Of a stretch of 31,638 bases of DNA, positions 1,121-30,791 are shown piece after piece (the stretch's first letter is position 1; every line of letters begins with the position of its first letter). Under the pieces are notes generated by a model, which was not told where the DNA came from, did not search any database, and was given only the letters and a program-made list of their open reading frames with translations. The position numbers and the translations under genes were made by a program. Source of the stretch: a virus; the IMG/VR virus record IMGVR_UViG_3300030085_000110, positions 10,107 through 41,744 of that record, one strand, 5' to 3'.

Positions 1121-3820
1121 TCAATTCAGCAGCAATGGCAAGCCGTAGACTTGGTGAGGACCGAAAGCACAACCAGTTGCCATGAAACCAGCACCCACAG
1201 AGTAGGACGCCATGCCCGACACCACTTGGTTGACAATAGATCCAGAGGGTGTGAATTCTGTGATCACACCAGTAGGACATGCAATGAAGGAGTTAATCAC
1301 ACCTGACGTGGTGCCCAAACAGATATCGTGAATAGATCCAGGGACCATGGTGCTTGCAGTTGCTCTCACAATCATAGGAGGTGACACTGATGGGAAGGGA
1401 GTATCAGTTGCCAACTCAAGGATGGTGCCCTTGACTACACGGAAACTACCAGTCAGTGCAGCAAATGGGTTAAAGACCGCAATACATTCCAGTCTTCCTG
1501 CATTCAAGAAAGATGTAATCCAGTTTGCCTCTTGCATGATCTCACCATCAGCAACCAACTCAATGGAGTTTGCTTCAACCCTGGTTACCTGTGAGTTGAT
1601 ATTCACTGATTCAATACCAGTGATTTTCACCTTGTTACCCTGAATAGTAACGTCACCAGTGTAAGAAATGTTGTGGTCGCCTTCCAAACGTTGACCAGAC
1701 TTCTGCTCCTTATCATCTTTCAACTCAGTAGAGAGTTGAGGACCCCAAGGTGTGCGACCCATCTCGTCAGCATCAGGGTGATAAGGAATCTTATCTACTG
1801 GATAGAATCCACCACCTTGAATCTTCTTGAAGTATTGTGCTCTACGCTCTTTCTGCTTAGCAGGGAAAGTAGCAATATCATACTTAGAAGCGGTGGTGTT
1901 TGTATCACCAAAGTCAGGATCAGGGTTTGCTGCCTTCACATTAGATGTGGCAGATCCAGATGCAACAGAGTCAGACTGTTGTGCCTTAGACATATCAGGT
2001 GCAGAAGATGATCCCTCGGACTCAGACTGAGGACCGTTGGACTTGTTTTCATTCTTAGCACCCACGATCTCCTCGTGGTAGTTACCCATGACTTTCAGAT
2101 AGAAGTCACCTTCTACTGTCAGCACATAGTTACCCTTGATAGTTTCACACTTATCTCTACCAATGATCTTGGTGGAGTTGTTGGGGACGTTTTGGTGTTG
2201 GTTACCAAAACTATCTTGGAAGTTGGTTTGACCACCAGGACCAGACTCGATTGCCTTTTCCTTGCCAGGTGTTGCGTCAAAGATCTTTTTAGCACCATTC
2301 AGGAAGGTTTGCACCTCCATCATGTAGGGATTGATGTCAGTAAACATCTGGTCGATGTAACTGCCACCCAGACCGCTGCCATCAACAGGGTTACCTGTCT
2401 TCATCAGAGAAGCATAATTGCTACCCTGCACAGCATCATCAATATTTGTACATGTCGTGGTCCCTAACAACGGGAACCACGATTTCGCTTTCGGTCGTTT
2501 AATCTTCCTCCCACAATCCTTCTTGAAGAACATGCCCAGGATTGCCAGGATGAATGCAATCAGTGATCCCCAGTCAAGACTGGTGAAGTCAAACTCCATG
2601 ATCATGGAGACAGTATCACCCAATCGTGATGCTGCCTGACCCATTGCACGAGCAGTATTAACAGCAGAGATGATGTCGCCAGTAATACCTGACATACGAT
2701 TCATCGCAGACTGAATACCCTCCAGGATACGATTGGTGATGCCTTCAACTGCTTCACCGATTGCAGACTGAATCACACTGGTGATCTTATCTACCGCTAG
2801 TGTTGCAATTTGGTTTGCAAAGTTTGCTGTATCCGCTAGTGCCGCTTGGACTAATCCTAACCATGCAGGGACAGGAGCACAGAAGATAGCAAAGATCTGC
2901 TCAAGGAATCCCAGGATTGCAGTAATCACACCCATGGGAATGAAACTGGAGATGATCTTCACCAGTGCGTTGATGATCGTAGCAATCGCCTGTGCCAGGA
3001 TCTCTTTTAATGGTGCCAGCACACCAGCAATAGCACCAGATAGGTAGTTAGCAATCTTACCCAGGTGCTCTAGGACCTTATCACCTGCCAGTCTTGCACC
3101 ATTGACCAGTGATACAAATGAATCGCCAGCATTACCAATTGATGCTGCCATGTTGCCCATCTCTGTGAGCATTCTTTTGATGTCAGTCTCAAAACCTTCA
3201 CCAGCAGATGCAGCAACACCATCACCAATACCCTGCTTCTCGACAGGAGGTTTAATAGGGTTAGTTACAGCGTTACCAGGAAGTGCTTCTTCCAGTGCAG
3301 AGATAGCACCACGAGCATTATCTTGACCACCAACAGGACTGCTAGGTGATGATTGCTGCGTCTTAGCAAATGAAGCACCATCCAATGCATTGGTGCCGAG
3401 TGGAGTCTGCTGCTGTTTAGCATTAGCAGGAGCATCCTTATCAGCAACCTTAGGATCTGCCACAGTAGTGCGCTTGTTTGCACCCTCTACTTGGAAACCA
3501 CGGAATGCACCGAGGACGATAGGTAACTGTGCTTCATCTCCATCTAGGAAGAAACCCAATACCCATGATCCACACTGCAACTCTGACATAGTGCCAGTGT
3601 TTTTAGTCTGTGGTTTATCAGTAGGAAGCAAGACATTTGCCCAAGGCAGCACCTTAGTAGGGACTTCCTTAATATAGTCTTCCTTCGCTTTATGTCCTGT
3701 ATACCACCCTAGAATTCTGACACGGACTCTACCTAGTTTAGATGGGTCGTTGTTGTCTTCAACTTCACCCACCCACCAAGTGTATCCGTCTCTTCCTAGG
3801 ATATCGGTGCGTTCTCTCAT
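1121..3820 (-). CDS. 5: Baseplate hub spike protein gp5, without lysozyme domain
   Basis: This 899-residue protein is the tail spike at the centre of the baseplate. Residues 1-110 (MRERTDILGRDGYTWWVGEV...) match the gp5 OB-fold: WVGEVEDNNDPSKLGRVRVR, then a strand ending PIVLGAFRG. In T4 a lysozyme domain follows; here I see no E-8-D-5-T signature. Instead there is a Gln/Pro-rich linker (about 120-210) and a long hydrophobic helical part (about 230-440). From about 555 short valine-Gly repeats (ETIKGNYVLTVEGDFYLKV) resemble the triple-stranded beta-helix needle of T4 gp5. The C terminus is Gly/Val-rich, ending YSVGAGFMATGCAFGPHQ, perhaps a PAAR-like tip. A late-promoter-like box lies about 22 bases upstream of the ATG. 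Likely forms trimers with the gp27-like protein at 4,595-5,941. Confidence 0.88.
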   Translation of the reverse strand: MRERTDILGRDGYTWWVGEVEDNNDPSKLGRVRVRILGWYTGHKAKEDYIKEVPTKVLPWANVLLPTDKPQTKNTGTMSELQCGSWVLGFFLDGDEAQLPIVLGAFRGFQVEGANKRTTVADPKVADKDAPANAKQQQTPLGTNALDGASFAKTQQSSPSSPVGGQDNARGAISALEEALPGNAVTNPIKPPVEKQGIGDGVAASAGEGFETDIKRMLTEMGNMAASIGNAGDSFVSLVNGARLAGDKVLEHLGKIANYLSGAIAGVLAPLKEILAQAIATIINALVKIISSFIPMGVITAILGFLEQIFAIFCAPVPAWLGLVQAALADTANFANQIATLAVDKITSVIQSAIGEAVEGITNRILEGIQSAMNRMSGITGDIISAVNTARAMGQAASRLGDTVSMIMEFDFTSLDWGSLIAFILAILGMFFKKDCGRKIKRPKAKSWFPLLGTTTCTNIDDAVQGSNYASLMKTGNPVDGSGLGGSYIDQMFTDINPYMMEVQTFLNGAKKIFDATPGKEKAIESGPGGQTNFQDSFGNQHQNVPNNSTKIIGRDKCETIKGNYVLTVEGDFYLKVMGNYHEEIVGAKNENKSNGPQSESEGSSSAPDMSKAQQSDSVASGSATSNVKAANPDPDFGDTNTTASKYDIATFPAKQKERRAQYFKKIQGGGFYPVDKIPYHPDADEMGRTPWGPQLSTELKDDKEQKSGQRLEGDHNISYTGDVTIQGNKVKITGIESVNINSQVTRVEANSIELVADGEIMQEANWITSFLNAGRLECIAVFNPFAALTGSFRVVKGTILELATDTPFPSVSPPMIVRATASTMVPGSIHDICLGTTSGVINSFIACPTGVITEFTPSGSIVNQVVSGMASYSVGAGFMATGCAFGPHQVYGLPLLLN

Positions 3821-4589: not shown

Positions 4590-4599
4590 GTTATTTAGT
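4590..4599 (-). promoter_or_regulatory. Late-promoter-like box upstream of cp12
   Basis: The minus strand reads ACTAAATAAC. Its first TAA is the stop codon of the gp27-like gene (4595-4597). It lies about 26 bases before the cp12 ATG. Two mismatches to TATAAATA make it weaker than the gp4 and gp48 boxes. Confidence 0.45.
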
Positions 4600-5941
4600 A
4601 GGACTGACTCTTGACTGAATCTCGTGTTAACTTTAATTCTGTAGTTAAACCCTCACGTTTGTAAGTATGTGTAAGTCCTGCAATGATATACTTACCGCTA
4701 TATTTGCGGTCTTCTAAGACCTTACCGTTGTCGCCAGCGGTTTGCTTAGATGCAGGAATACTTACTTTGAGGATCTGACCGACAGTTAGTGCTGGATTAC
4801 CAGGAATAACGATTGTCAATTGCACAGACTTAAGCAGACTGTAGCGTGCTGAAGCATACATGCCAACAGATAGTGTATCTTTGTTACCTTCAACACCTGC
4901 TTTATGATTAGCACTCTGCTGATTCTTCATATCAGGCAAGTTTCTGATATGCAGTCTTGTTGGTGCAATCTTATCAACATCAATGTCCTCTGGCAAAACA
5001 TATGGTGGTTGCTTCTCAATCGTAGATGCCATAGCAAACACCTGCATATAATTCACTTCTCTTGGTGGAGAAATAGTGCCTCGTTTGTTACTATTACCAG
5101 AGTCTGTGGTTGCTGAGTCTGTAGTGATAGGTAAGGAGATACCGATAGAAAGCGCCTTATAAGTCCCTAGACGCATGTTTCTGAGGTGATCTGCCTTATC
5201 GGGATACATTACAGATTCGATAGCATACATGCCATCATCTTCTGGATCTGATCCTTGCTGGACCAGTGTATATACAAACTTCTCAGCACCATCTATCTGC
5301 CCCTCACACAGTCCATCAATAGATTGGAAGCAGAATCCCTTCTTGTTTTCAAAAAAGAGAAAACCACTCTGTTTCAGACTTGCTTTACTGCCTTTCTTTC
5401 TGACAACTTTGTCACAGATATGACTGATTGCATCTGTAACTTTCCAGTTGGGTGAGATGAAGTTAATGGTGCTGTGAGGCTCCATATACTTACTCTTCAT
5501 CTTGTCAGTTTCCCAATACTTTTTAAGGAGATGCTTGGGAATATGATCTGGATTCTTAGCACCATCCATTGGTCCAAATGATTTGAAGACCTTCTTCATC
5601 TCATTGCTGTAAATCTCAGGCGTTGCAGTATGGAGGATATACATCTGACCACGCTCAGACTTGATGATGCTACCAATCTTATACACACGGAATTTCATAT
5701 CCATGTCATCACCTTTCGATGATTCACACTCAAGTTTTACATGGATGGTCTCACCACCCATCAACGTCTTGTTAAAGTCAACAGCGTCAGCGATGGTAAA
5801 ATCACACCTGATGAATGGTGATTCAATCGACTCGTAGTATGTGAAGTCAACGACAATCTCTCTGATGTCATACGTCTCACCACCGACGAGCTCGATCTCA
5901 ATCTTTTTTAATTCGTGTAGTCTTGATCTTCTATTTGCCAT
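4595..5941 (-). CDS. Baseplate hub protein, gp27-like
   Basis: The 448-residue protein has the character of T4 gp27 and phage Mu gp44 hub subunits, which form the trimeric ring that seats the gp5 spike and joins the tail tube. The N-terminal part is a beta domain (IEIELVGGETYDIREIVVDF), followed by the strand-rich second domain around VDFTYYESIESPFIRCDFTI; a middle region with NPDHIPKHLLKKYW; and a C-terminal beta domain with TIVIPGNPALTVGQILKVSI and YIIAGLTHTYKREGLTTELK, typical of hub proteins that bind late. Slightly longer than T4 gp27 (391). It sits one base after the giant tape-measure-like gene and two genes from gp5, as expected for a hub set. The gp27 name rests on pattern and position. 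Confidence 0.7.
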   Translation of the reverse strand: MANRRSRLHELKKIEIELVGGETYDIREIVVDFTYYESIESPFIRCDFTIADAVDFNKTLMGGETIHVKLECESSKGDDMDMKFRVYKIGSIIKSERGQMYILHTATPEIYSNEMKKVFKSFGPMDGAKNPDHIPKHLLKKYWETDKMKSKYMEPHSTINFISPNWKVTDAISHICDKVVRKKGSKASLKQSGFLFFENKKGFCFQSIDGLCEGQIDGAEKFVYTLVQQGSDPEDDGMYAIESVMYPDKADHLRNMRLGTYKALSIGISLPITTDSATTDSGNSNKRGTISPPREVNYMQVFAMASTIEKQPPYVLPEDIDVDKIAPTRLHIRNLPDMKNQQSANHKAGVEGNKDTLSVGMYASARYSLLKSVQLTIVIPGNPALTVGQILKVSIPASKQTAGDNGKVLEDRKYSGKYIIAGLTHTYKREGLTTELKLTRDSVKSQSY

Positions 5942-5942
5942 T

Positions 5943-8825
5943 TTACATCAGGTCGGTCATGTCGTTTTTGAAGTCTGCTACCAGACCAAACTTAGGAGTG
6001 AGGAAAGGCTCTGCATCTTGAGGTTGCCAGTTAGGAATAACAATAGGTTGCTCTTCACCAGCAGATCCAACACTAATTGGTGGCATGTTGAGTGCCTCAG
6101 CAAACGTTGTGCCACTACCAGCAAGTTGGAATGCTTCAGTAAACATCTTGTTTTTGTCTTCTTCCTCCTTCAATTTTGCTTCATTGATCTTGGCACCAGG
6201 GGCGTGCTCAGCATCTGCCATCATGCTACCGAATTGACCCAGTGCTTTCTCCAGCGATTCCATCGCCAGATCCATACCACCCTTCTTAGTCTCACCAGAA
6301 TCCTTACCTTCATTACTAGCAGGTGGTGTGACTTCCACTTCCTTCATTGCTTCTGGTGCCACCCCTGCGAGAGTCTCGCCAGTTACATCATCCTTTGCAC
6401 CAGGGAGTGCAGTGATGACATCACCCTGAGAATCAGTAGTAGTGAGTGCAAACTCTTGGGCAGCACGGGCAGCATATCCTCTTGCCTGCTCATCAGTAAC
6501 ACCTTGTTTCTTCCAGGCGTTGTAGTTGTCTTGATATGATCTATTGTAGAAGAATGCGATCTCTGCTTGCTTAGCAGTGGTCATCTTCTTCAGATCATAC
6601 TTATGAGATTTCGATTGACGGTGATACTTACCATGCTTCTTAGCAAGGTATTTCTTCCATGCCTCCGACTCTGTGACTGCTTTCCACTCAGCAGATGTAG
6701 GATTGACACCCGTCAGATCATCAGGTTTCCAGAAGTTGTCACTGACAATCTTATTCATCTGGAGCATGGTGACATTACCAGCATCCTCTTTATAACGTAT
6801 GATGTAACTCTTCTCACCAACAGTCACCTTGTCGCTGCTGATTGAGTCCTTGTTATACTCTGTGGGACTAAACTTGACCTTACCGCCCTCTGCATATCCC
6901 TTCATGGTAGGTCTCAATGCGCCACCCATAGAGAAACCAGGCATACCATATCCACCTGCTGCTGCCTGACGCATCCTCAGACCTGTCAGACCAGGAGACT
7001 TTCTAGTTGCAGGAGTATCAAATGGGACAACGAATGCACCACCTCTAGCAAATCCTTTGTAACCCACCCACTCTGTGCCATGACCAATGAATGAAGTAGA
7101 TCTACCACCATCCAGTGATACAGGATATCCACTCTGAGGACCAGAGATCCACCCACCACGAGCGAATCCTCCTCCAGGGACTTGTCCACCCTCAGAGAAT
7201 CCGAAGAATCCTGTTACTGCATTCCATGCACTACCAATAAAGGACCCTGCTACTTTCATAGCAGATCCCAGAGGATTCTTGATAATCTCAACAACAATAC
7301 CGAAGACTTCTTTCAGCAGTGGAATGATGCCATCTTGCTCCATCAGAGCATTGATCAGATCTTCAAAGAATCCTTCCTCACGACGGAAGAAATTCTTCGC
7401 TTGCATCATCATCTCACCACCAGCAGATGCTTGTGGGAGGACTACAGGTGCTTTGACCTTGCCACCTGCTGCTTTACCTTCTGGTGCATCCTCACCCTTC
7501 TTAGGTGTGAAGAATTTAAGGACAGCAGTCAGTGCTTTCATACCCAGCAGCAGGGGTGCAAATGCAACTTGGAATCCAATACCGACTATCTTCTTGATAA
7601 ATGGCAAGTGGGGTTTAACCATCTCCAACATGCCACTCATGAATCCTCCAAGCACCTTGAAGAATTCAGTAGCGTTGTCCTTCAGGGGTTGGATCACCGC
7701 CATGAAGACATCGCCAACCTGCTTAAAGAAGTCGCCAATGGGTTGGACAAGAGGCTCCAGCATGGGACCAATTGTCTTACCAATAGCACCACCAGCAAGA
7801 CCGCCGACAGCACCACCGATTGCTGATCCAGCAGGACCAAACTTACTACCTAATGCCTGACCAATAGCAGTGCCAGCACCAGCGCCAACGCCACCACCAA
7901 TTGCTTCTGCATCACTACCACCAGTTGCTTTGATCGCCATGGCGGTAGCAGTGCCTGCACCGAGGACACCAGCGACCTTACCAAACTTACCACCAAAGAC
8001 AGCTTTACCTGCCTTCAGCATATTCATCATGCCGCCACCGATGAGTTTCAGCAGTGAGAATACTGCCGATACGGTAGCTCTTGGACTCTTGAGGAATGCC
8101 ATCCCAATGAATAGTGGGGCGGCAGACAATACAAACTGGACAGCACCAAAGAATCCCTTCAGACTAATCGGATTCTCCAGAAACTTAACGAGTCCATCGA
8201 AAGCGGATCCGACGAGAAAGCTGGAAACTTTGAAAATGAATTTACCAAGGGCGGCGAGTCCCTTCGCAAGTCGTTGGACTTTCTCTGGATTCTTTGATAA
8301 CCAGTCCAGAAGACCGAAGATGACAAAGTATTTGAGAAAGAATCCAGCGAGCCTAGCGAGAGCACCGAAGAGACCACCGAATGCTTTCTTAGTTTGCTCT
8401 TTGAATTCTTTACGGATAACCTGAAATTTCCCAGGTTTCTTCTTACTTTTAGCCTCCGCTGCATCACGGAGCTCGCGTGCCTGTTGCTTCTTCTTATCAG
8501 TTAATTCTTTTGCTTTGTCTTTCTTCTCGTCGGCACGAATCTTACCTTCTACTTTCGCAAGGTTATTTTGATTCCTGATCTGAGCATTGACAGATGCTGC
8601 CATTGACTCTGCAAGTTTCTCTGTAGTCAGAGCAACACTATTCAGCGTTGCACCCAGAGAGTTAATACCTGAGATCAGACTTTTAACACTGATCTGCACG
8701 TCACCCATTGCCTTAGCAGCAGTGAGTGGAGTGTATTTAGATCCACCCGAGCCAACAGATCCCTTATAAGATACCATCTTATAAAGTTTTGCCTTCGGGA
8801 TCTTGACTTGCCTAGTTTCTGCCAT
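5943..8825 (-). CDS. Tape-measure-like tail protein, 960 aa
   Basis: This long protein is built like a tail-length or hub-interior protein. Residues 40-145 form a charged coiled-coil (KKDKAKELTDKKKQQARELR), 150-260 are hydrophobic helices (FFLKYFVIFGLLDWLSKNPE), then a Gly/Ala-rich membrane-prone stretch (about 285-345), another helical block, a Gly-rich linker with GGQVPGGGFARGGWISG-type repeats (about 555-665), and a C-terminal globular part with HGKYHRQSKSHKYDLKKMTT that I cannot place. It shares the order and residues of the first 450 positions with the neighbouring 1,118-residue protein (for example IGPMLEPLVQPIGDFFK against IGPIIEPIMGPIGEFFK), so they look like an old tandem duplication. 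No lysozyme or peptidase motif is seen here. It may fill the gp29 role; assignment is inference. Confidence 0.75.
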   Translation of the reverse strand: MAETRQVKIPKAKLYKMVSYKGSVGSGGSKYTPLTAAKAMGDVQISVKSLISGINSLGATLNSVALTTEKLAESMAASVNAQIRNQNNLAKVEGKIRADEKKDKAKELTDKKKQQARELRDAAEAKSKKKPGKFQVIRKEFKEQTKKAFGGLFGALARLAGFFLKYFVIFGLLDWLSKNPEKVQRLAKGLAALGKFIFKVSSFLVGSAFDGLVKFLENPISLKGFFGAVQFVLSAAPLFIGMAFLKSPRATVSAVFSLLKLIGGGMMNMLKAGKAVFGGKFGKVAGVLGAGTATAMAIKATGGSDAEAIGGGVGAGAGTAIGQALGSKFGPAGSAIGGAVGGLAGGAIGKTIGPMLEPLVQPIGDFFKQVGDVFMAVIQPLKDNATEFFKVLGGFMSGMLEMVKPHLPFIKKIVGIGFQVAFAPLLLGMKALTAVLKFFTPKKGEDAPEGKAAGGKVKAPVVLPQASAGGEMMMQAKNFFRREEGFFEDLINALMEQDGIIPLLKEVFGIVVEIIKNPLGSAMKVAGSFIGSAWNAVTGFFGFSEGGQVPGGGFARGGWISGPQSGYPVSLDGGRSTSFIGHGTEWVGYKGFARGGAFVVPFDTPATRKSPGLTGLRMRQAAAGGYGMPGFSMGGALRPTMKGYAEGGKVKFSPTEYNKDSISSDKVTVGEKSYIIRYKEDAGNVTMLQMNKIVSDNFWKPDDLTGVNPTSAEWKAVTESEAWKKYLAKKHGKYHRQSKSHKYDLKKMTTAKQAEIAFFYNRSYQDNYNAWKKQGVTDEQARGYAARAAQEFALTTTDSQGDVITALPGAKDDVTGETLAGVAPEAMKEVEVTPPASNEGKDSGETKKGGMDLAMESLEKALGQFGSMMADAEHAPGAKINEAKLKEEEDKNKMFTEAFQLAGSGTTFAEALNMPPISVGSAGEEQPIVIPNWQPQDAEPFLTPKFGLVADFKNDMTDLM

Positions 8826-8828
8826 TTA

Positions 8829-11800
8829 TTAGAAGGGGGCGACCATGGGAGAGGGCTTAGTCCAGACGACCTGAGGTCCTCCACCTTGATTATTTATTAC
8901 ATGTTGGACAGCAGTTTGCTGCTTCACAACAGGCACCACCGCTGGTGTCATCTCTTGATCCTTCTTACGCTGTGCCTGCTCTTTAGACTTCTTTTGGACC
9001 GAATACAGGTTGCCAGCAGTCACCTCAGGTGCAATCTGAGAGATTGTTGCTCTTTGCTTAATAGCATTCTCTGCTGCTTGTCCACGAGCACGACTCAGAC
9101 CCACTCTCAGGGATGCCTCACCACTGCCACTCATACCAATACCCTTAGCAAAGGCATCTCTGAAGGTGGTCTCGAATCCCTTGACGAGAGCATCCATTGC
9201 CTGCTCTAGGGTCTGTGGTTTAGACTCTGAGCTATCTGAAGTCTGTCCATCTGGAGATGATGAATTATCTGGTGATGTCTGAGGAGATGATCCCTCACCC
9301 TGTGTCTTTACATCACCAAGTTTCTTAGATGGTCTGATAGATCTAGGTGCTTTCCACATCCAGACATCGCCATCGGGCAACTGATTCTGGAAGAGATTCT
9401 TGTCCATGAAGTAATACTTACCAGGACCATCAGTCTTGTTACCAGCACTGTTAGTCTTCTTCCAGGTGCCGCCAAAACCCAGTTGTCCGAATGGATCATG
9501 GACTACGAATCCATTATCCTTCATGCCAACAACCATACCCCAGTGACCCGATCCCTTATATTTGAATCCAACGGGCACAGGATATCCTGCTTGAATCTCA
9601 TCACGGAGTGCATTCCAACTCATTCCAGTTTGCAGAGATGAGTTAATACCAAAGTCGGCAAGTGCTTTCTTCTGAGGATATGCTTCTGTAGAGATACCAT
9701 ACTCACTACGGACCTTGTTATAGTCCTCAGCAGTCATAGGTTTACCAGTGAGTTGTGCTACCCACATTGCCATTGTGGTTGAATAGCACTGAGTATCACC
9801 AGGGCGACCATACTTATCTTGCTTATTCGCTCTCTGGTTGATGTATGGCACATCTTGGATGATCTTGCCACCCTCAGCAGCAAACTGAATGCTAGGGACT
9901 CTCTTGCCACTACCACTCTCCATGATATCTGCTTCGTCATTACGACGCCAGCTATTGATACCACCGTTGTGGTTTGCAAGTTTCTCTCTATACGCTGCAA
10001 TTACAGGAGCAAAGTCACCTGTCTGAAGGGCATTCTTAACTGTGCTCTTAATGCCAGCACCATCCAGAGATCCATAGTTGAAAACTACGGACTCAAGTCC
10101 TACCTTCTGTCTTTCAGTTGCTTTAGAATAAAGATCACCACCTACCTCACCAATGAGACGCTTACGGTGATCCTCAATATGCTTTGCCTTGATCCAATAT
10201 GCTTCCTCTTCGGTGATAGTATCACCTCTCTTCACCTTACCTGAGAGACGGAAACCAGGAGGATAGTATGTTGCACCAATACCAATGGTAGGAATCTCCC
10301 ATCCATAGTTGGCATCTTTGTATGCTTCCAGTCTCAGACCTTCATAGTTACCCAAGACTGCTGCAAACTTCTCATCAAAGTCTCCACTTACTGATGGAGC
10401 ACTCCCTGCTCTTGCGGGTGTAGCACTCGCTGGTGTCCTTCCGTCAACTGGGACTTGACCAGCATTGGGTTTGTTCTTAGCATCATTCTGCTTGAGTTTC
10501 TTGTCACGGATACCAAGCGCCTTCTTCATGATGCCGACTGACTTGATCATGATGCCACGAAGGCTCATGTCATCCTTATTTGTGACTAACTCAAGTAGTT
10601 TTATCTTGAGTTTATCAATCTCTCTCTTGGGACCAACTGGAGGTGGTGGACCAACCATACCACCTGCTGCTCGACCCATACCATCGAAGTCAGTCAGACC
10701 AAACGTCAATGCATCCAGGAATCCAGCACCCACGCTGGCAGGATTCATCAATCTTTTGGCATTGCTAATAACAAACTGAATTGTCTTACCGATGACATCC
10801 ATGATGCCACCAGCAATGAAACCAATGAAGTCACCAAGGACTTTCGCTCCATCTAGGATGAGTTGAATCATCCCACCCAAGAATCCAAAGAGTGCTCCAA
10901 ACATCTCTTTCATGGGCTCAAAGATGGGCATCAAGGCATCCTTGATGACATCAAAGGACATCTTAAAGAATTCACCGATAGGACCCATGATGGGCTCGAT
11001 GATGGGTCCAATAGACTTACCTACCCATTCACCCAGGAAACCACCAACGGCACTACCAATCATAGGTGCCAGGGGTCCCAACCAGGGAGCAACTGCTGTC
11101 AGAGCAGCAGCACCAGCGACACCACCGACTGCTTGTCCAACACCAGCACCGACTGCTGTGCCTGCACCCTCACCACTAGACAGACCCGCTGCAATACGAG
11201 CACCACCGCCGAGTATAGACATTCCTGCCATACCCTTCATGCTCATCATGCCACGACCCATGCGACCTAGAGTCGTCGATCCTTTGAAGGATGCTCGTCC
11301 ACGGACTCTGGTTGCGAATCTATTCTTTGCTGCCTTACCACCATAACGGCGAGCATATCTCTGTCTTACCGCCTTAGATGCGTTGCTAGATCTAACACCT
11401 CTAGGTGGTCTAGCATTAGGATCTGTACCTGCTTGCTTTGATGAATTAAATACACCCTTAACCCAGTTGATGTCCTGCATCAACTTCCATGGCATCAGGA
11501 TATACTGTGCTGCCCTAAATGTAGCAAGTCCACCGAGGAGTTGGAATGCACCGAGAAGGAATCTCAGTCCTCTTCCTACCTTACTCTCGTTTAGATCACT
11601 GAAGTCACCAAACATATTGGTGAGACCATCCATGATGGAGCCCACACTAAATTTGACAAGATTGAATGCAAACTTACCAATAGCAAATGCTAGTTTGAAT
11701 ACCTTGACGAATGCCTCTGGATTCTTCTCCATGACATCCAAGACACCAAACATGATAAAGTATTTGGCAACAGTGCCAAGAATACCGCCAAGTGCCTGCA

Positions 11801-12185
11801 AGAAACCCTTGACTGGTTTCTTGACCTTCTCTGCTAGTTCTTTTTTATCTTCTTTTGCGTCTTCTACGCCCTTTTCTGCCTGCTCCTCAGAATCGTCTCT
11901 CTTGTCTCTCTGGAAGAGTTTCTTAGCAAACTTCTTCATCTTAGCGCCGAAGGTTAGTTTCTCCTTACGCTCTGCTTTGACCTCTTCGATCTGCTCTTGA
12001 GTGTTTGTCTTGAGAAACTCTCTTTCAAACTCGATTAACTTTCTCGCTTGATCCAGATTGACGCCAATACCTTGGACCGCAACACCAGTACGATTGATGC
12101 CCTTCCGAAGCTCCTGAAGGTTTTTACCTACGGGAGACTTTACGGCGGTCGGTTTGATTTTGACGAAACTACGGATAGCAGCCAT
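8829..12185 (-). CDS. Tape-measure-like protein with lysozyme and C39-like peptidase domains
   Basis: This 1,118-residue protein has a coiled-coil N terminus (about 40-125), hydrophobic helices (125-240), a basic Arg-rich stretch (258-310) and Gly/Ala-rich helices (320-500). Residues about 602-765 match GH24 phage lysozyme: EGLRLEAYKD then PTIGIGATYY, giving E615, D624 and T633 in T4 lysozyme order E11-D20-T26; the T4 His31 position is Ala. Residues about 777-947 match the C39-like papain fold: a GDTQCYSTTMAMW box (C800), KGSGHWGMVVG (H881) and VVHDPFG (D897). The tail is Ser/Gln-rich. A virion protein with both a glycosidase and a peptidase could open the cell wall during DNA entry. The GH24 call is firm, the peptidase call good, and the location inferred. 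Confidence 0.85.
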   Translation of the reverse strand: MAAIRSFVKIKPTAVKSPVGKNLQELRKGINRTGVAVQGIGVNLDQARKLIEFEREFLKTNTQEQIEEVKAERKEKLTFGAKMKKFAKKLFQRDKRDDSEEQAEKGVEDAKEDKKELAEKVKKPVKGFLQALGGILGTVAKYFIMFGVLDVMEKNPEAFVKVFKLAFAIGKFAFNLVKFSVGSIMDGLTNMFGDFSDLNESKVGRGLRFLLGAFQLLGGLATFRAAQYILMPWKLMQDINWVKGVFNSSKQAGTDPNARPPRGVRSSNASKAVRQRYARRYGGKAAKNRFATRVRGRASFKGSTTLGRMGRGMMSMKGMAGMSILGGGARIAAGLSSGEGAGTAVGAGVGQAVGGVAGAAALTAVAPWLGPLAPMIGSAVGGFLGEWVGKSIGPIIEPIMGPIGEFFKMSFDVIKDALMPIFEPMKEMFGALFGFLGGMIQLILDGAKVLGDFIGFIAGGIMDVIGKTIQFVISNAKRLMNPASVGAGFLDALTFGLTDFDGMGRAAGGMVGPPPPVGPKREIDKLKIKLLELVTNKDDMSLRGIMIKSVGIMKKALGIRDKKLKQNDAKNKPNAGQVPVDGRTPASATPARAGSAPSVSGDFDEKFAAVLGNYEGLRLEAYKDANYGWEIPTIGIGATYYPPGFRLSGKVKRGDTITEEEAYWIKAKHIEDHRKRLIGEVGGDLYSKATERQKVGLESVVFNYGSLDGAGIKSTVKNALQTGDFAPVIAAYREKLANHNGGINSWRRNDEADIMESGSGKRVPSIQFAAEGGKIIQDVPYINQRANKQDKYGRPGDTQCYSTTMAMWVAQLTGKPMTAEDYNKVRSEYGISTEAYPQKKALADFGINSSLQTGMSWNALRDEIQAGYPVPVGFKYKGSGHWGMVVGMKDNGFVVHDPFGQLGFGGTWKKTNSAGNKTDGPGKYYFMDKNLFQNQLPDGDVWMWKAPRSIRPSKKLGDVKTQGEGSSPQTSPDNSSSPDGQTSDSSESKPQTLEQAMDALVKGFETTFRDAFAKGIGMSGSGEASLRVGLSRARGQAAENAIKQRATISQIAPEVTAGNLYSVQKKSKEQAQRKKDQEMTPAVVPVVKQQTAVQHVINNQGGGPQVVWTKPSPMVAPF
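8890..8897 (-). promoter_or_regulatory. Possible late-promoter box inside the lysozyme-TMP gene end
   Basis: Minus strand ATAAATAA, 65 bases before the ATG of the 960-residue gene, within its upstream neighbour's coding end. It matches seven of eight positions of TATAAATA, but such AT-rich strings can arise by chance here. Confidence 0.3.
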
Positions 12186-12370
12186 TAGAGAGACATACGA
12201 TTTTTCTCTGCGGATTGCCGTCTTTCCTCTTCAGCAATGTATGCTAATAGGAGATTCACATATACATCTCTTTCCCACGGCATAAGATTCTCAATTTCAG
12301 TTAGAGAATACTTGTGGTGTTGTGCAAGTGCAAAATTAGTCTTGTAATAGTTTTCAAGACTATTATGCAT
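12185..12370 (-). CDS. 51: Baseplate hub assembly protein, gp51-like
   Basis: The 61-residue protein begins MHNSLENYYKTNFALAQHHK and holds the run YSLTEIENLMPWERDVYVNL, all helical. Short proteins of this pattern lie between gp26 and the tape-measure gene in T4-like cyanophages and are annotated as gp51-type hub assembly factors. They resemble tail-assembly chaperones in size and in position directly before a tape-measure gene. It is much shorter than T4 gp51, so the name rests on recalled cyanophage annotation and synteny. The end base is shared with the start of the next gene, and it starts 6 bases after gp26, indicating translational coupling. Confidence 0.6.
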   Translation of the reverse strand: MHNSLENYYKTNFALAQHHKYSLTEIENLMPWERDVYVNLLLAYIAEEERRQSAEKNRMSL

Positions 12371-12375
12371 TAGGG

Positions 12376-13080
12376 CTACTCGAAAAAAGATGCGAGACCC
12401 TCAAGCACAATCTCGCTGGTGACACCAGTTTTGGGATTGTTGATAGGTAAGGTATACTGCAGTTTGGGCATGGTCTCAAAGAATTCTTGAATCTTTGCAA
12501 ATTGCTCAGAGTTAAGATTCTCTAGAAACTCCAATGCTTCCTTGGTGGTGAAGGAGTCATATACTTCTTCATCATCATATACTTGACCAATGCAGCTAGC
12601 AGCAAGTTTGAAGACATCATCCATAGTAGGATTGTCTGACATATTCTGGTTGACGAAGACTTCCAAGGAAGGATACTTCATCACAACACCAACTTTATCG
12701 TCAAGTTTGATCTTCTGCTTGTGATTCTCAGGGACTACAACATCAACCATGTCCAGGGGGACACTGACTTCAACTTGAGTCTCTTCATCATCAGGGCAGG
12801 TGACCTTAAATTCACTGACCTCACCAACTGCCTTGCCACGAATCTTCAGGAAGATATATTCAATCTCAAAGGTAGCGAGATCTTCAACCTTATTCTTCAG
12901 GTTAGTGCAGTTTTTGATGATAGTCTTAACCGCTTTGATCATCTCTTTGTCATTCTGAGATTCCATTGCCAGATACAGCAACTTCTCTTCCTTGACCAGA
13001 AATGGACGGTATGCGACTTTGGTGCCCGAAAGGGGCATTGTCAATTCATATTCAGGAATTGCAAGTTTGGGTAAAGGCAT
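12376..13080 (-). CDS. 26: Baseplate hub assembly protein gp26
   Basis: The 234-residue product opens with MPLPKLAIPEYELTMPLSGT and YRPFLVKEEKLLYLAMESQN, the signature of the T4 gp26 family (T4_baseplate). It continues with helical stretches and a mid-protein Cys at TCPDDEET, and ends in a LPINNPKTGVTSEIVLEGL stretch. T4 gp26 (208 residues) is needed to assemble the hub and acts as a chaperone or hub-cap component rather than an enzyme. A late-like box TCTAAATAAT lies about 20 bases before the ATG. It is followed closely by gp51-like and the giant proteins, a typical order of hub genes. Length and start fit the family. Confidence 0.88.
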   Translation of the reverse strand: MPLPKLAIPEYELTMPLSGTKVAYRPFLVKEEKLLYLAMESQNDKEMIKAVKTIIKNCTNLKNKVEDLATFEIEYIFLKIRGKAVGEVSEFKVTCPDDEETQVEVSVPLDMVDVVVPENHKQKIKLDDKVGVVMKYPSLEVFVNQNMSDNPTMDDVFKLAASCIGQVYDDEEVYDSFTTKEALEFLENLNSEQFAKIQEFFETMPKLQYTLPINNPKTGVTSEIVLEGLASFFE

Positions 13081-27428: not shown

Positions 27429-30400
27429 TTAGCTCGCTTCCGTAATGATAATTCTAAACCTCAGTCTATCACGGTTTCTGTCAGAGCAGAAATACCAGAT
27501 GGGTGAGTTTGTATTGTGGGACTCTTGGTATATAGCCTCCTTAGCAACTCGTCTTGCTTTCTCTTTGTCTTCATACCAAGCAACAAGTTTTTTGTTAGGT
27601 AACTTGAAGTTGTTTTGGTAGTCAGGATAGTAAGGAGTCGCTGATTTATTCTCATCGTCCTCACGACGATTAGGTGGCCATTGCAAATCAAATGACATGC
27701 CTTCCTGATAACCTTGACCAGGATAAATGATTTGAATTACATGAATGATTGCCTGCCAATAATATCTAGTCCTACTTGCTTGTCCTACTCTCGCAGGATA
27801 GAAAGTAATACCGATCCTAATCTTAGCAGCAACTGCTGTGTTACCAGCATTCTCAAACGCATCACCATCCAAGACATAATCATGGATGAATGTAGTAGGA
27901 GCATAGTAATCTACTGCTCCAGGTCCAGCAGTCCATTCAGACTGGAGGACATTACGATAAGAGTCTCCTCTAGATGCAATGCCTGCTTCATACCAGGGTA
28001 GATACCCTTTAGCAAAAGCAGTAGGTGCTACGTCCTTGATCTCTGACCCGCCACTGATGTTGAGACCATCAAATCTAGTGACTAGGAAATTCTCAAGAAG
28101 GTTATTATAACAACCAGTGGTCTGTCTGTAAAGGTGCGTTTCTCTATCACCATACTCATACTCACTAGCAGGATACGCGATGTAACCCGTATCAATATAC
28201 CCACCACTGATGTTAGGTAAGAATCTATTATTCTCACTACGGACATGCCCACCCATGTGCTCAGGATTTGTTTGCAATGTCCCATGCATCTGGACAGGGA
28301 GACTATTTGTATACACCTGAGTGTATGGACTCAAATTGATCTGCTCAGGGATCCTATGCCAGGAGTCAGTGCCCTTAGATCCTGCTTGGAAGGATGCATT
28401 CTTACGATTGTAAGGTTTGAATTGCATACCGAAGGACTGGATAGCACCGACAGTACTCTGAATAGGATTAGTCCAACCAGATCCACCAGCAAATGCCATG
28501 ATGTCATCGTCTGCCATGACAGCAGACATGTTGATAGCAAAGGAAGAATCAAAAATTCCCTTCTCCGTATCATACAAAGCAATGTGTGGTGATACTGTGC
28601 CTGTCTGTGGTCCAGTAATCAACTCCATGAATACAAATTGCAGCACGTCACCAACGTTGAGGCTGATGTCCTGATTGTGAATGTCCTTACCAATTGCTGG
28701 CCATCTCTCTGCAGTCCAGGTGCCCTGGTAAACTGTCGATCCATTCTTAAGGAATTTGAATTTGAATTTCATGCAGGATGCCAGAGTGCCACCTGTAATG
28801 CCACCCATGGAAACGATCCTGTAAGTGCCAGCACTCTTCACTCGAATGCTCTGATCATTATTAAGACGAGCACTGTAACTACCCACACATCTCTTACATT
28901 CGTGATCATTTAGATGATCCACAGAGATCGTAGAGGGTGTGTCACCACCACAACCAGTCCTAGCAATAGTTACATCCTTAAATGATGTTTCAATAATTCT
29001 AGACTCACAACCAGAGGGAGCAAGGTTTCTGTAAACAGGAGGTGGTGCATCATCTTCATACACATAGCATTGGATACCCTCAAGGTGGTAACCATTGCTC
29101 TGCCACTGCACCTTGTGCCAGAATTTCAGGTCATCATAATCATCGTCCCCATTCATGAGGTCTTCCCACATCTGGCGGTTTCTACCATGCCACTTGGTTT
29201 GATCCTTGTCATTAGGATTCCACCTGTGGTCAGAGAAGAGGCAGTAGTTACCTTCCGCAGTGCTGATACCACTACCACGGAAACCATCACCCTGTGATTG
29301 GAAGTTGATCTGTTGTCCTCTACTCAGACTATTCTGATCACCACCATCAGGGATGATAAAGAATCCCATGCTGCCACCCCTGTATGAATTCAGTTGTGAC
29401 TGTGTGATAGTGACACGATTGATATCAGATCCTGACTGTGCAGATGGCACAACAACATAACCAACCTGAGGACCATTCTCATTCGCGAGATAATATCCTA
29501 GGGCATTGTCGTAACCAGCAGATCCTTTCTCAGTGTCAGTAGTGACCAAAAGATTTGCAGTGATCTCACCTCTAGGGATTCTGTAAGCATTCAGTTTCTT
29601 ATATGTCTGAGGAAACTCCTGCAAGAATTCAGGGTCAATGGTATACATGTGATCGCTACCATTGTAGAAACGATACAGAGCATTGGCCTGCTCGTCATCA
29701 CCCAACCAGGAAATCATATCTGATCCTGTGGTAAAGACATACCCCAACAGAGCATTAAACTGCATACCAGCAGAATTCATAGTGGGTCTCTCGCCCTGTC
29801 CAGGAGAGTCAGGAGCACCTGGGTTGGTGGTCATGAAACCATCACCCGAAGAGTTGGTGTAATAGAAGAGAGGAGCAGTGACTAATCTATCTCCAACCTC
29901 TAGAGGATCTTTCAGGACATAGAATGCTGGGTCACCACTGCCGACTGTGCTGTAGGTGTGCTTACCGCCACTCTTGGTCTCATAGATGGGGACTCTGGGT
30001 GGGAAGCAATTCTTGACACAGACCCTATCCCTGTTTGCACTCCAGTTGTTGGGGTAGTAGGTGTCGCTATTCTGTTTGGGTGGCGTCCACCTACCGCCAA
30101 TGTAGGGACGGAAGAAACAATCCAGCGAGCTTCTAACGCAACGCTCCCAGTCAAGGTCCTGGTCACGGTTGGTGTCTTTACAGTAGAGGATTTCACCTGT
30201 TAGTTTATTTCTCCAACGATAGTTACCAATACTTTCTATCTGACCACGGACTCTGAGTCTCATGACCTCAACACAATCATCACCGTCGCCAAGATAGACA
30301 ACAGATGAAGAGTCATTAGGATCAGGTGTCTTAATGATCAGACCACCATCAATCCATGGCAGGTCTGGAAAGAAATCTTTCAACCAATCCAGGAAGTCGA

Positions 30401-30791
30401 AGTCGATGCTAATAACATTGTCATCCACCTCAGGGACTGTCGCAGGGACCTGTAGTGGAGGGAGACCAGGGTAACAACGTCCAACCAAATCCTGAATAAC
30501 TTCAGCAGGTGTTGGTGCTGGTGGCTCTACAGCAGGGATCTCAGGGATGACAGGATTCTGCTGGTCAAGTGGGTTGGGCTGCAGTGGAGGGACGCCTGCA
30601 TAGCATCTACCAACCAACTGTTGCACTACCTCAGCAGGTGTCGGTGTGGGCACAGGACCCACAGTAGACCCACCCAGTGCAGCAGATGCAGGATTGCTAC
30701 CATCGAGAGCATTGGGTTGATTGGGTATCATATACCCAGAAGTGCCGATGTAGCACCTATCAACTATGTTCCTTATATCCTCTGCAGACAT
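27429..30791 (-). CDS. Large tail fibre or structural protein with DUF5648- and DUF4114-like parts
   Basis: The 1,120-residue protein starts with three repeats of the pattern A-E-x-I/V-x-x-L/I-V-x-R-C-Y-x-G, with C13, C63 and C106, and with P-P-L-Q after the second and third, linked by Pro-rich stretches. Around 265-400, the run LYRFYNGSDHMYTIDPEF and similar lines resemble DUF5648 sugar-binding-like repeats. Around 475-580, GFFIIPDGG then WEDLMNGDDDYDDLKFWHKV resembles DUF4114, a C-terminal domain of many cyanobacterial secreted proteins. Later parts are beta-rich with EYEYGDRETHLYRQTTGCYN. It likely decorates or forms fibres that contact the host. I do not recognise a T4 homologue. A late-like box lies about 23 bases before the ATG. 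Confidence 0.75.
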   Translation of the reverse strand: MSAEDIRNIVDRCYIGTSGYMIPNQPNALDGSNPASAALGGSTVGPVPTPTPAEVVQQLVGRCYAGVPPLQPNPLDQQNPVIPEIPAVEPPAPTPAEVIQDLVGRCYPGLPPLQVPATVPEVDDNVISIDFDFLDWLKDFFPDLPWIDGGLIIKTPDPNDSSSVVYLGDGDDCVEVMRLRVRGQIESIGNYRWRNKLTGEILYCKDTNRDQDLDWERCVRSSLDCFFRPYIGGRWTPPKQNSDTYYPNNWSANRDRVCVKNCFPPRVPIYETKSGGKHTYSTVGSGDPAFYVLKDPLEVGDRLVTAPLFYYTNSSGDGFMTTNPGAPDSPGQGERPTMNSAGMQFNALLGYVFTTGSDMISWLGDDEQANALYRFYNGSDHMYTIDPEFLQEFPQTYKKLNAYRIPRGEITANLLVTTDTEKGSAGYDNALGYYLANENGPQVGYVVVPSAQSGSDINRVTITQSQLNSYRGGSMGFFIIPDGGDQNSLSRGQQINFQSQGDGFRGSGISTAEGNYCLFSDHRWNPNDKDQTKWHGRNRQMWEDLMNGDDDYDDLKFWHKVQWQSNGYHLEGIQCYVYEDDAPPPVYRNLAPSGCESRIIETSFKDVTIARTGCGGDTPSTISVDHLNDHECKRCVGSYSARLNNDQSIRVKSAGTYRIVSMGGITGGTLASCMKFKFKFLKNGSTVYQGTWTAERWPAIGKDIHNQDISLNVGDVLQFVFMELITGPQTGTVSPHIALYDTEKGIFDSSFAINMSAVMADDDIMAFAGGSGWTNPIQSTVGAIQSFGMQFKPYNRKNASFQAGSKGTDSWHRIPEQINLSPYTQVYTNSLPVQMHGTLQTNPEHMGGHVRSENNRFLPNISGGYIDTGYIAYPASEYEYGDRETHLYRQTTGCYNNLLENFLVTRFDGLNISGGSEIKDVAPTAFAKGYLPWYEAGIASRGDSYRNVLQSEWTAGPGAVDYYAPTTFIHDYVLDGDAFENAGNTAVAAKIRIGITFYPARVGQASRTRYYWQAIIHVIQIIYPGQGYQEGMSFDLQWPPNRREDDENKSATPYYPDYQNNFKLPNKKLVAWYEDKEKARRVAKEAIYQESHNTNSPIWYFCSDRNRDRLRFRIIITEAS
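30447..30785 (-). repeat. Triple RCYxG repeat at fibre N terminus
   Basis: Three copies in protein at residues 3-20, 53-71 and 96-115, each about 45 residues apart, with AEDIRNIVDRCYIG, AEVVQQLVGRCYAG and AEVIQDLVGRCYPG. DNA of copies two and three is also similar (CAGCAGGTGTTGG and CAGCAGGTGTCGG on plus). Confidence 0.75.

Follow-up and report, generated by a model that had tools for sequence, protein, structure and literature searches.

A long protein encoded at the baseplate hub locus of a T4-like cyanophage carries a GH24 lysozyme domain and a C39-like cysteine peptidase domain, and the gp5 spike protein of the same virus is free of lysozyme. We consider it probable that this protein, here called X, is a carrier in the tail interior or baseplate hub that would deliver a glycan-cutting enzyme and a probable peptide-cutting enzyme at entry. 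In our best reading, X belongs with the tail-associated lysins, a known kind.

The window (the whole stretch analyzed, 31,638 nucleotides, positions 10,107 to 41,744 of IMG/VR record IMGVR_UViG_3300030085_000110) has a hub locus in which gp26 and gp51 are followed by X and Y, then by a 448-aa tail protein that is conserved, a pair of small genes of which one is CpeT, and gp5; psbA is near this locus. The order from gp26 to gp5 together with psbA indicates that the window comes from a T4-like cyanophage of the family Kyanoviridae. T4-like cyanophages rank among the most abundant viruses in the ocean. The features discussed below are as follows.

1121..3820, minus strand: gp5, with an OB domain and a trimeric beta-helix part, lysozyme free
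2570..3199, minus strand: gp5 residues 208-417, helical and hydrophobic, separating the OB part from the beta-helix part (phrog_305, 1.8e-6)
4595..5941, minus strand: tail protein at the gp27 position (T4-GC15 family), 448 aa (phrog_350, 7.9e-92)
5943..8825, minus strand: Y, paralogue of X, 960 aa, with no recognized enzyme in the window and a near-invariant motif at residues 554-623
8829..12185, minus strand: X, hub-locus protein with GH24 and C39-like domains, 1118 aa
8832..8918, minus strand: X residues 1090-1118, conserved C-terminal tail (VINNQGG..VVWTKPSPM)
9492..9857, minus strand: C39-like cysteine peptidase domain, X residues 777-898 (Peptidase_C39_2, PF13529, E 2.9e-9)
9495-9497, 9543-9545, and 9786-9788, minus strand: C39 catalytic codons D897, H881, and C800
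9888..10496, minus strand: X residues 564-766, exchangeable segment (GH24 in the window, GH104 in locus L014)
9990..10349, minus strand: GH24 lysozyme domain, X residues 613-732 (Phage_lysozyme, PF00959, E 2.9e-11)
10287-10289, 10314-10316, and 10341-10343, minus strand: GH24 catalytic codons T633, D624, and E615
10497..12185, minus strand: X residues 1-563, conserved helical Gly/Ala-rich carrier, paralogous to Y (structure of low confidence)
12185..12370, minus strand: gp51-like baseplate hub assembly catalyst, 61 aa (phrog_634, 5.5e-28)
12376..13080, minus strand: gp26 baseplate hub protein (PF12322, 4.7e-70)

Small genes aside, this order is common to S-ShM2, P-TIM40, Syn19, S-SZBM1, S-SCSM1, and other kyanoviruses; S-CRM01 and Melnitz-2 have a single long gene in place of X and Y. 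The identity of the 448-aa protein as gp27 is positional, since a profile search against the PDB returned no match for it. Elsewhere in the window, positions 27429-30791 encode a 1120-aa protein of a family whose function is not known (phrog_26996, 9.7e-208).

X and Y are paralogous over X residues 19-462 (hhalign probability 100, 1.5e-39). A 70-residue motif of Y, at residues 554-623 (GGWISGPQSGYPVSLDGG..FIGHGTEWV), is near-invariant across kyanoviruses, and identity in the rest of the protein falls to 24-29%. We take this motif to resemble one found in other tape measure proteins.

Two enzyme domains on X

The reading frame of X is real, running on the minus strand from 12185 to 8829. Both Pfam matches in the protein exceed the curated cutoffs, and the catalytic residues that the initial annotation had assigned to a GH24 site and a C39-like triad lie exactly where they had been placed. 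E615, D624, and T633 are identical in all GH24 rows that cover them in an alignment of relatives. C800, H881, and D897 are each conserved in 26 of 26 covering C39 rows, and Q799, an oxyanion-type residue directly preceding C800, is conserved in 24 of the 26.

In an AlphaFold model of X residues 590-960, most of the C39 part has a pLDDT of about 74-91, the C-lobe of the GH24 domain is confident, and its N-lobe is poor. Foldseek matched the C39 part to C39 and papain-like peptidases (3erv and the peptidase domains of PCAT1 and ComA; TM 0.54-0.68 by target, with 0.64-0.68 for the PCAT1 and ComA domains, probability 1.00, E 3e-3 to 3e-2) and the GH24 part to T4 lysozyme and gp5 (TM about 0.5 by target for lysozyme). 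The structural comparison proposed for these domains supports a papain-like fold for the peptidase; for the glycosidase, with its poor N-lobe, a two-lobed T4 lysozyme fold is possible. The E values all exceed 1e-3 (best, 1.2e-3).

X had also been described as containing coiled-coil and membrane-prone helices. Gly/Ala-rich hydrophobic stretches are present, and a single segment of 19 residues has a Kyte-Doolittle value exceeding 1.6; a full-length model is mostly helical over residues 18-560, but its confidence is very low (pLDDT 46) and we took it as no more than a hint. Pfam detected no ABC transporter domain, of the kind fused to C39 bacteriocin-processing peptidases, in the 1118 residues of X. 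MA10 (L103:40853-42121) and S-H34 (L106:42352-43620) have a separate C39-containing gene, annotated as endolysin and located away from the hub locus.

Absence of a lysozyme from gp5 and reported presence of X proteins in virions of relatives

A T4-type lysozyme had been reported as missing from gp5, and our searches agree: of the OB and lysozyme domains, the window gp5 has only the OB domain. No lysozyme match was found in any of 15 kyanovirus proteins at the gp5 position (that of the window and 14 others), in a search that recovered the T4 gp5 control at 1.3e-12. Residues 208-417 of the window gp5, which give weak matches to PHROG tape-measure families, occupy the place of the lysozyme in T4 gp5. 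Two short genes following gp5 that are annotated as tail or base plate lysozymes (S-CREM2, L104:18231-19046; S-PM2, L097:12571-13665) also had no Pfam lysozyme match. Many gp5 records of T4-like cyanophages are labeled tail lysozyme, yet none of those tested has a detectable lysozyme domain. The wall enzyme has moved off gp5, as initially suggested, and is now on the neighboring protein X; this arrangement is not peculiar to the window phage but is common in the kyanoviruses sampled.

Evidence for X in the virion comes from relatives. Mass spectrometry of S-CREM2 virions detected X (73 unique peptides) and Y (71 unique peptides), both of which the authors listed as lysis proteins (PMC10665884). 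A glucosaminidase and a D-Ala-D-Ala carboxypeptidase were detected in S-SCSM1 virions, for which the authors thought a structural role unlikely (PMC9602691). According to the S-SCSM1 record, the carboxypeptidase is Y and a virion protein labeled lysozyme is X; Pfam places GH73 in X and VanY (M15) in Y. The text on the S-SZBM1 virion proteome names gp5, gp26, and the gp27-position protein and leaves X and Y unnamed, which speaks against the carrier reading. By analogy with the same-position proteins of S-CREM2 and S-SCSM1, a virion location for the window X is supported indirectly.

Exchange of enzyme modules among kyanoviruses

Across the family, the X/Y slot holds GH24, GH104, GH19, GH73, Phage_lysozyme2, SLT, C39, M23, M15, and amidase domains. 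A lambda-type GH104 occupies it in L014 (1am7 at 1.2e-9); GH19 occurs in L023, MA10, S-H34, and S-CREM2; GH73 in L016 and S-SCSM1; Phage_lysozyme2 in L029, S-ShM2, S-PM2, and L070; SLT in L080, with weak matches in L021 and L027; M23 in L025, S-PM2, and ACG-2014f; M15 in L028 and S-SCSM1; and amidase_2, slightly below its cutoff, in L033. No recognizable enzyme was found on X or Y in Syn19, P-TIM40, L042, L058, and L081, a further point against the carrier reading. The second slot of L027, L029, and P-TIM40 looked by eye like a cysteine amidase; it gave zero Pfam matches and was left out of the counts. A GH104-like reading of the first slot of L033 was likewise unsupported. The suggestion that X had gained a peptidase is too specific, for the modules that can be exchanged are several and the peptidase is only one of them.

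In those nearest relatives of X that have two recognized modules, the glycan-cutter comes first and an amide- or peptide-cutter second, and the two kinds of enzyme are split across X and Y in S-SCSM1 (GH73 and M15) and S-PM2 (Phage_lysozyme2 and M23). The pairing describes the loci sampled and is not a statistical result; some phages have one kind only.

The exchanges are clean. Between the X genes of L011 and L023, DNA identity is 99.3% in the opening 1831 bases and 97.1% in the final 1064; the stretch separating these encodes GH24 in L011 and GH19 in L023, and the loci flanking X are 98-99% identical. For the window and L014, the corresponding identities are 94.7% and 92.8%, on the two sides of a GH24 that is replaced by GH104. 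The GH24 domain of S-ShM2 is 73% identical to that of the window but sits on Y, after C39, whereas identity is 39% between the two C39 domains and 26-50% for gp26, gp5, and the protein at the gp27 position, as expected from horizontal transfer of the module. GC content gave no sign of a foreign origin, since the swapped modules are similar to their flanks. In the literature searched, which mostly excluded subscription papers, we found no account of the relocation or swapping of wall enzymes in T4-like cyanophages.

The X protein of S-PM2 (L097:2357-5860) has, in addition to Phage_lysozyme2, an ADP-ribosyltransferase-like domain at residues 66-218 (PF01129, 1.3e-5). Judged from its sequence, this domain is a candidate for delivery into the host, and its presence implies that wall enzymes are not the only cargo open to the X family.

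Discussion

We propose that X has a structural role, either inside the tail or in the baseplate hub. Its N-terminal helical part would anchor it in the tail or hub, and its C-terminal half would be a cargo cassette in which a GH24 muramidase acting on glycan strands is followed by the C39-like peptidase. Tail contraction would drive the lysozyme-free gp5 spike through the outer membrane, X may then be freed along with the contents of the tube, and the two enzymes would together open the cyanobacterial wall locally so that DNA can pass. The cassette appears to be modular, such that relatives exchange either enzyme for a family of like chemistry and keep the carrier, with modules on X, Y, or both. 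Joint action of the two X enzymes is likely, given that most close relatives of the window pair a glycan-cutter with an enzyme that cuts amide or peptide bonds; the two-step action of the initial annotation is putative.

Known systems resemble this arrangement in part. As in T4, a GH24 enzyme would be brought by the baseplate hub of a contractile tail; in T4, however, it is fused into the gp5 spike between the OB and beta-helix parts, whereas here it is on a separate long protein with a peptidase. The tape-measure lysins (TM4, T5 pb2, phiIPLA35, and an enterococcal tape measure protein with GH23) are, as X would be, long proteins of the tail interior with an embedded wall-cutting domain. X differs from them in that its tape-measure role is putative, two tandem enzymes are on one of two paralogous carriers, and the enzymes are swapped between close viruses. 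In Anabaena phage A-1(L), likewise a cyanophage, the hub protein gp15 bears a lysozyme domain together with endoglucanase and peptidase domains, and the endoglucanase and the peptidase act on host cells (PMC10966104); there the enzymes are fused to the hub barrel itself, and the phage is of a different lineage. Further parallels, S-CREM2 ORF208/209 and S-SCSM1 ORF213/214, are X and Y genes by position, with products found in virions by mass spectrometry; they carry GH19, GH24, GH73, and M15, and their authors labeled them lysis or nonstructural proteins.

That label raises an alternative hypothesis, in which X is an endolysin working from inside the cell at lysis. It agrees with the PHROG names (phrog_90, phrog_7, and others are labeled endolysin) and with the placement of S-CREM2 X and Y under lysis proteins (PMC10665884). 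We regard it as very improbable: some 560 N-terminal residues would have no role in a soluble lysin, X is encoded in the hub operon, the S-CREM2 proteins are represented in the virion peptide data given above, and in both MA10 and S-H34 the annotation endolysin is also given to a gene separate from X. A different objection concerns only the peptidase, which might process a virion protein during assembly or be injected to act on a host protein. Processing peptidases and effectors are found among C39 and C70-like folds, and the ADP-ribosyltransferase-like domain of S-PM2 X makes non-wall cargo possible in the family; C39-like folds also occur in toxins, and the target is therefore unproven. We nevertheless think this unlikely. 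In close relatives the second-module position holds amidase_2 or M15, wall-enzyme families that suggest a wall substrate, and the fold matches of the C39 part include the pseudomurein endoisopeptidase PeiR. From sequence, the most likely substrates of the C39-like domain are stem peptides or cross-links.

The carrier explanation also has a stronger form, compatible with it, in which X by itself or together with Y serves as the tail tape measure and bears the enzymes C-terminally, much as the tape-measure lysins of siphophages do; we give this about even odds. The hub locus contains no other tape-measure candidate, the RefSeq label of S-SCSM1 Y is "tail length tape measure protein," and the low-confidence model of X is mostly helical over residues 18-479. 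(S-CREM2 ORF124, considered as a competing tape measure, matches DUF4815.) The summed length of X and Y in residues also rises with published tail length in nanometers (S-SZBM1, 1673 and 72-114; S-H34, 1671 and 129; S-SCSM1, 2081 and 173; S-CREM2, 3021 and 418), although four tails are too few for a simple rule. At 0.15 nm per residue, 418 nm exceeds the span of either S-CREM2 protein alone, and S-CRM01 has a single such gene of 864 aa with a tail of 140-170 nm; both misfit a one-protein rule. The corresponding proteins of Syn19 are 1548 and 1212 aa. Profile comparison gave no match to T4 gp29 for X (hhalign probability 1%) and at most a weak one for Y (10%), and the tape-measure role suggested in the initial annotation is plausible but putative.

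The wall-opening enzymes of these phages appear to be on two neighboring proteins that are commonly labeled hypothetical or endolysin. We speculate further, and tentatively, that X and Y are a paralogous tape-measure pair forming a two-slot carrier of wall enzymes, a set that recombination would reshuffle within short times; such rapid reshuffling of the enzyme set would make the wall chemistry of entry a fast-changing host-range trait. The clean exchanges seen in near-identical viruses suggest that the chemistry of entry evolves as modules are exchanged, and they allow this to be tested directly against host wall type.
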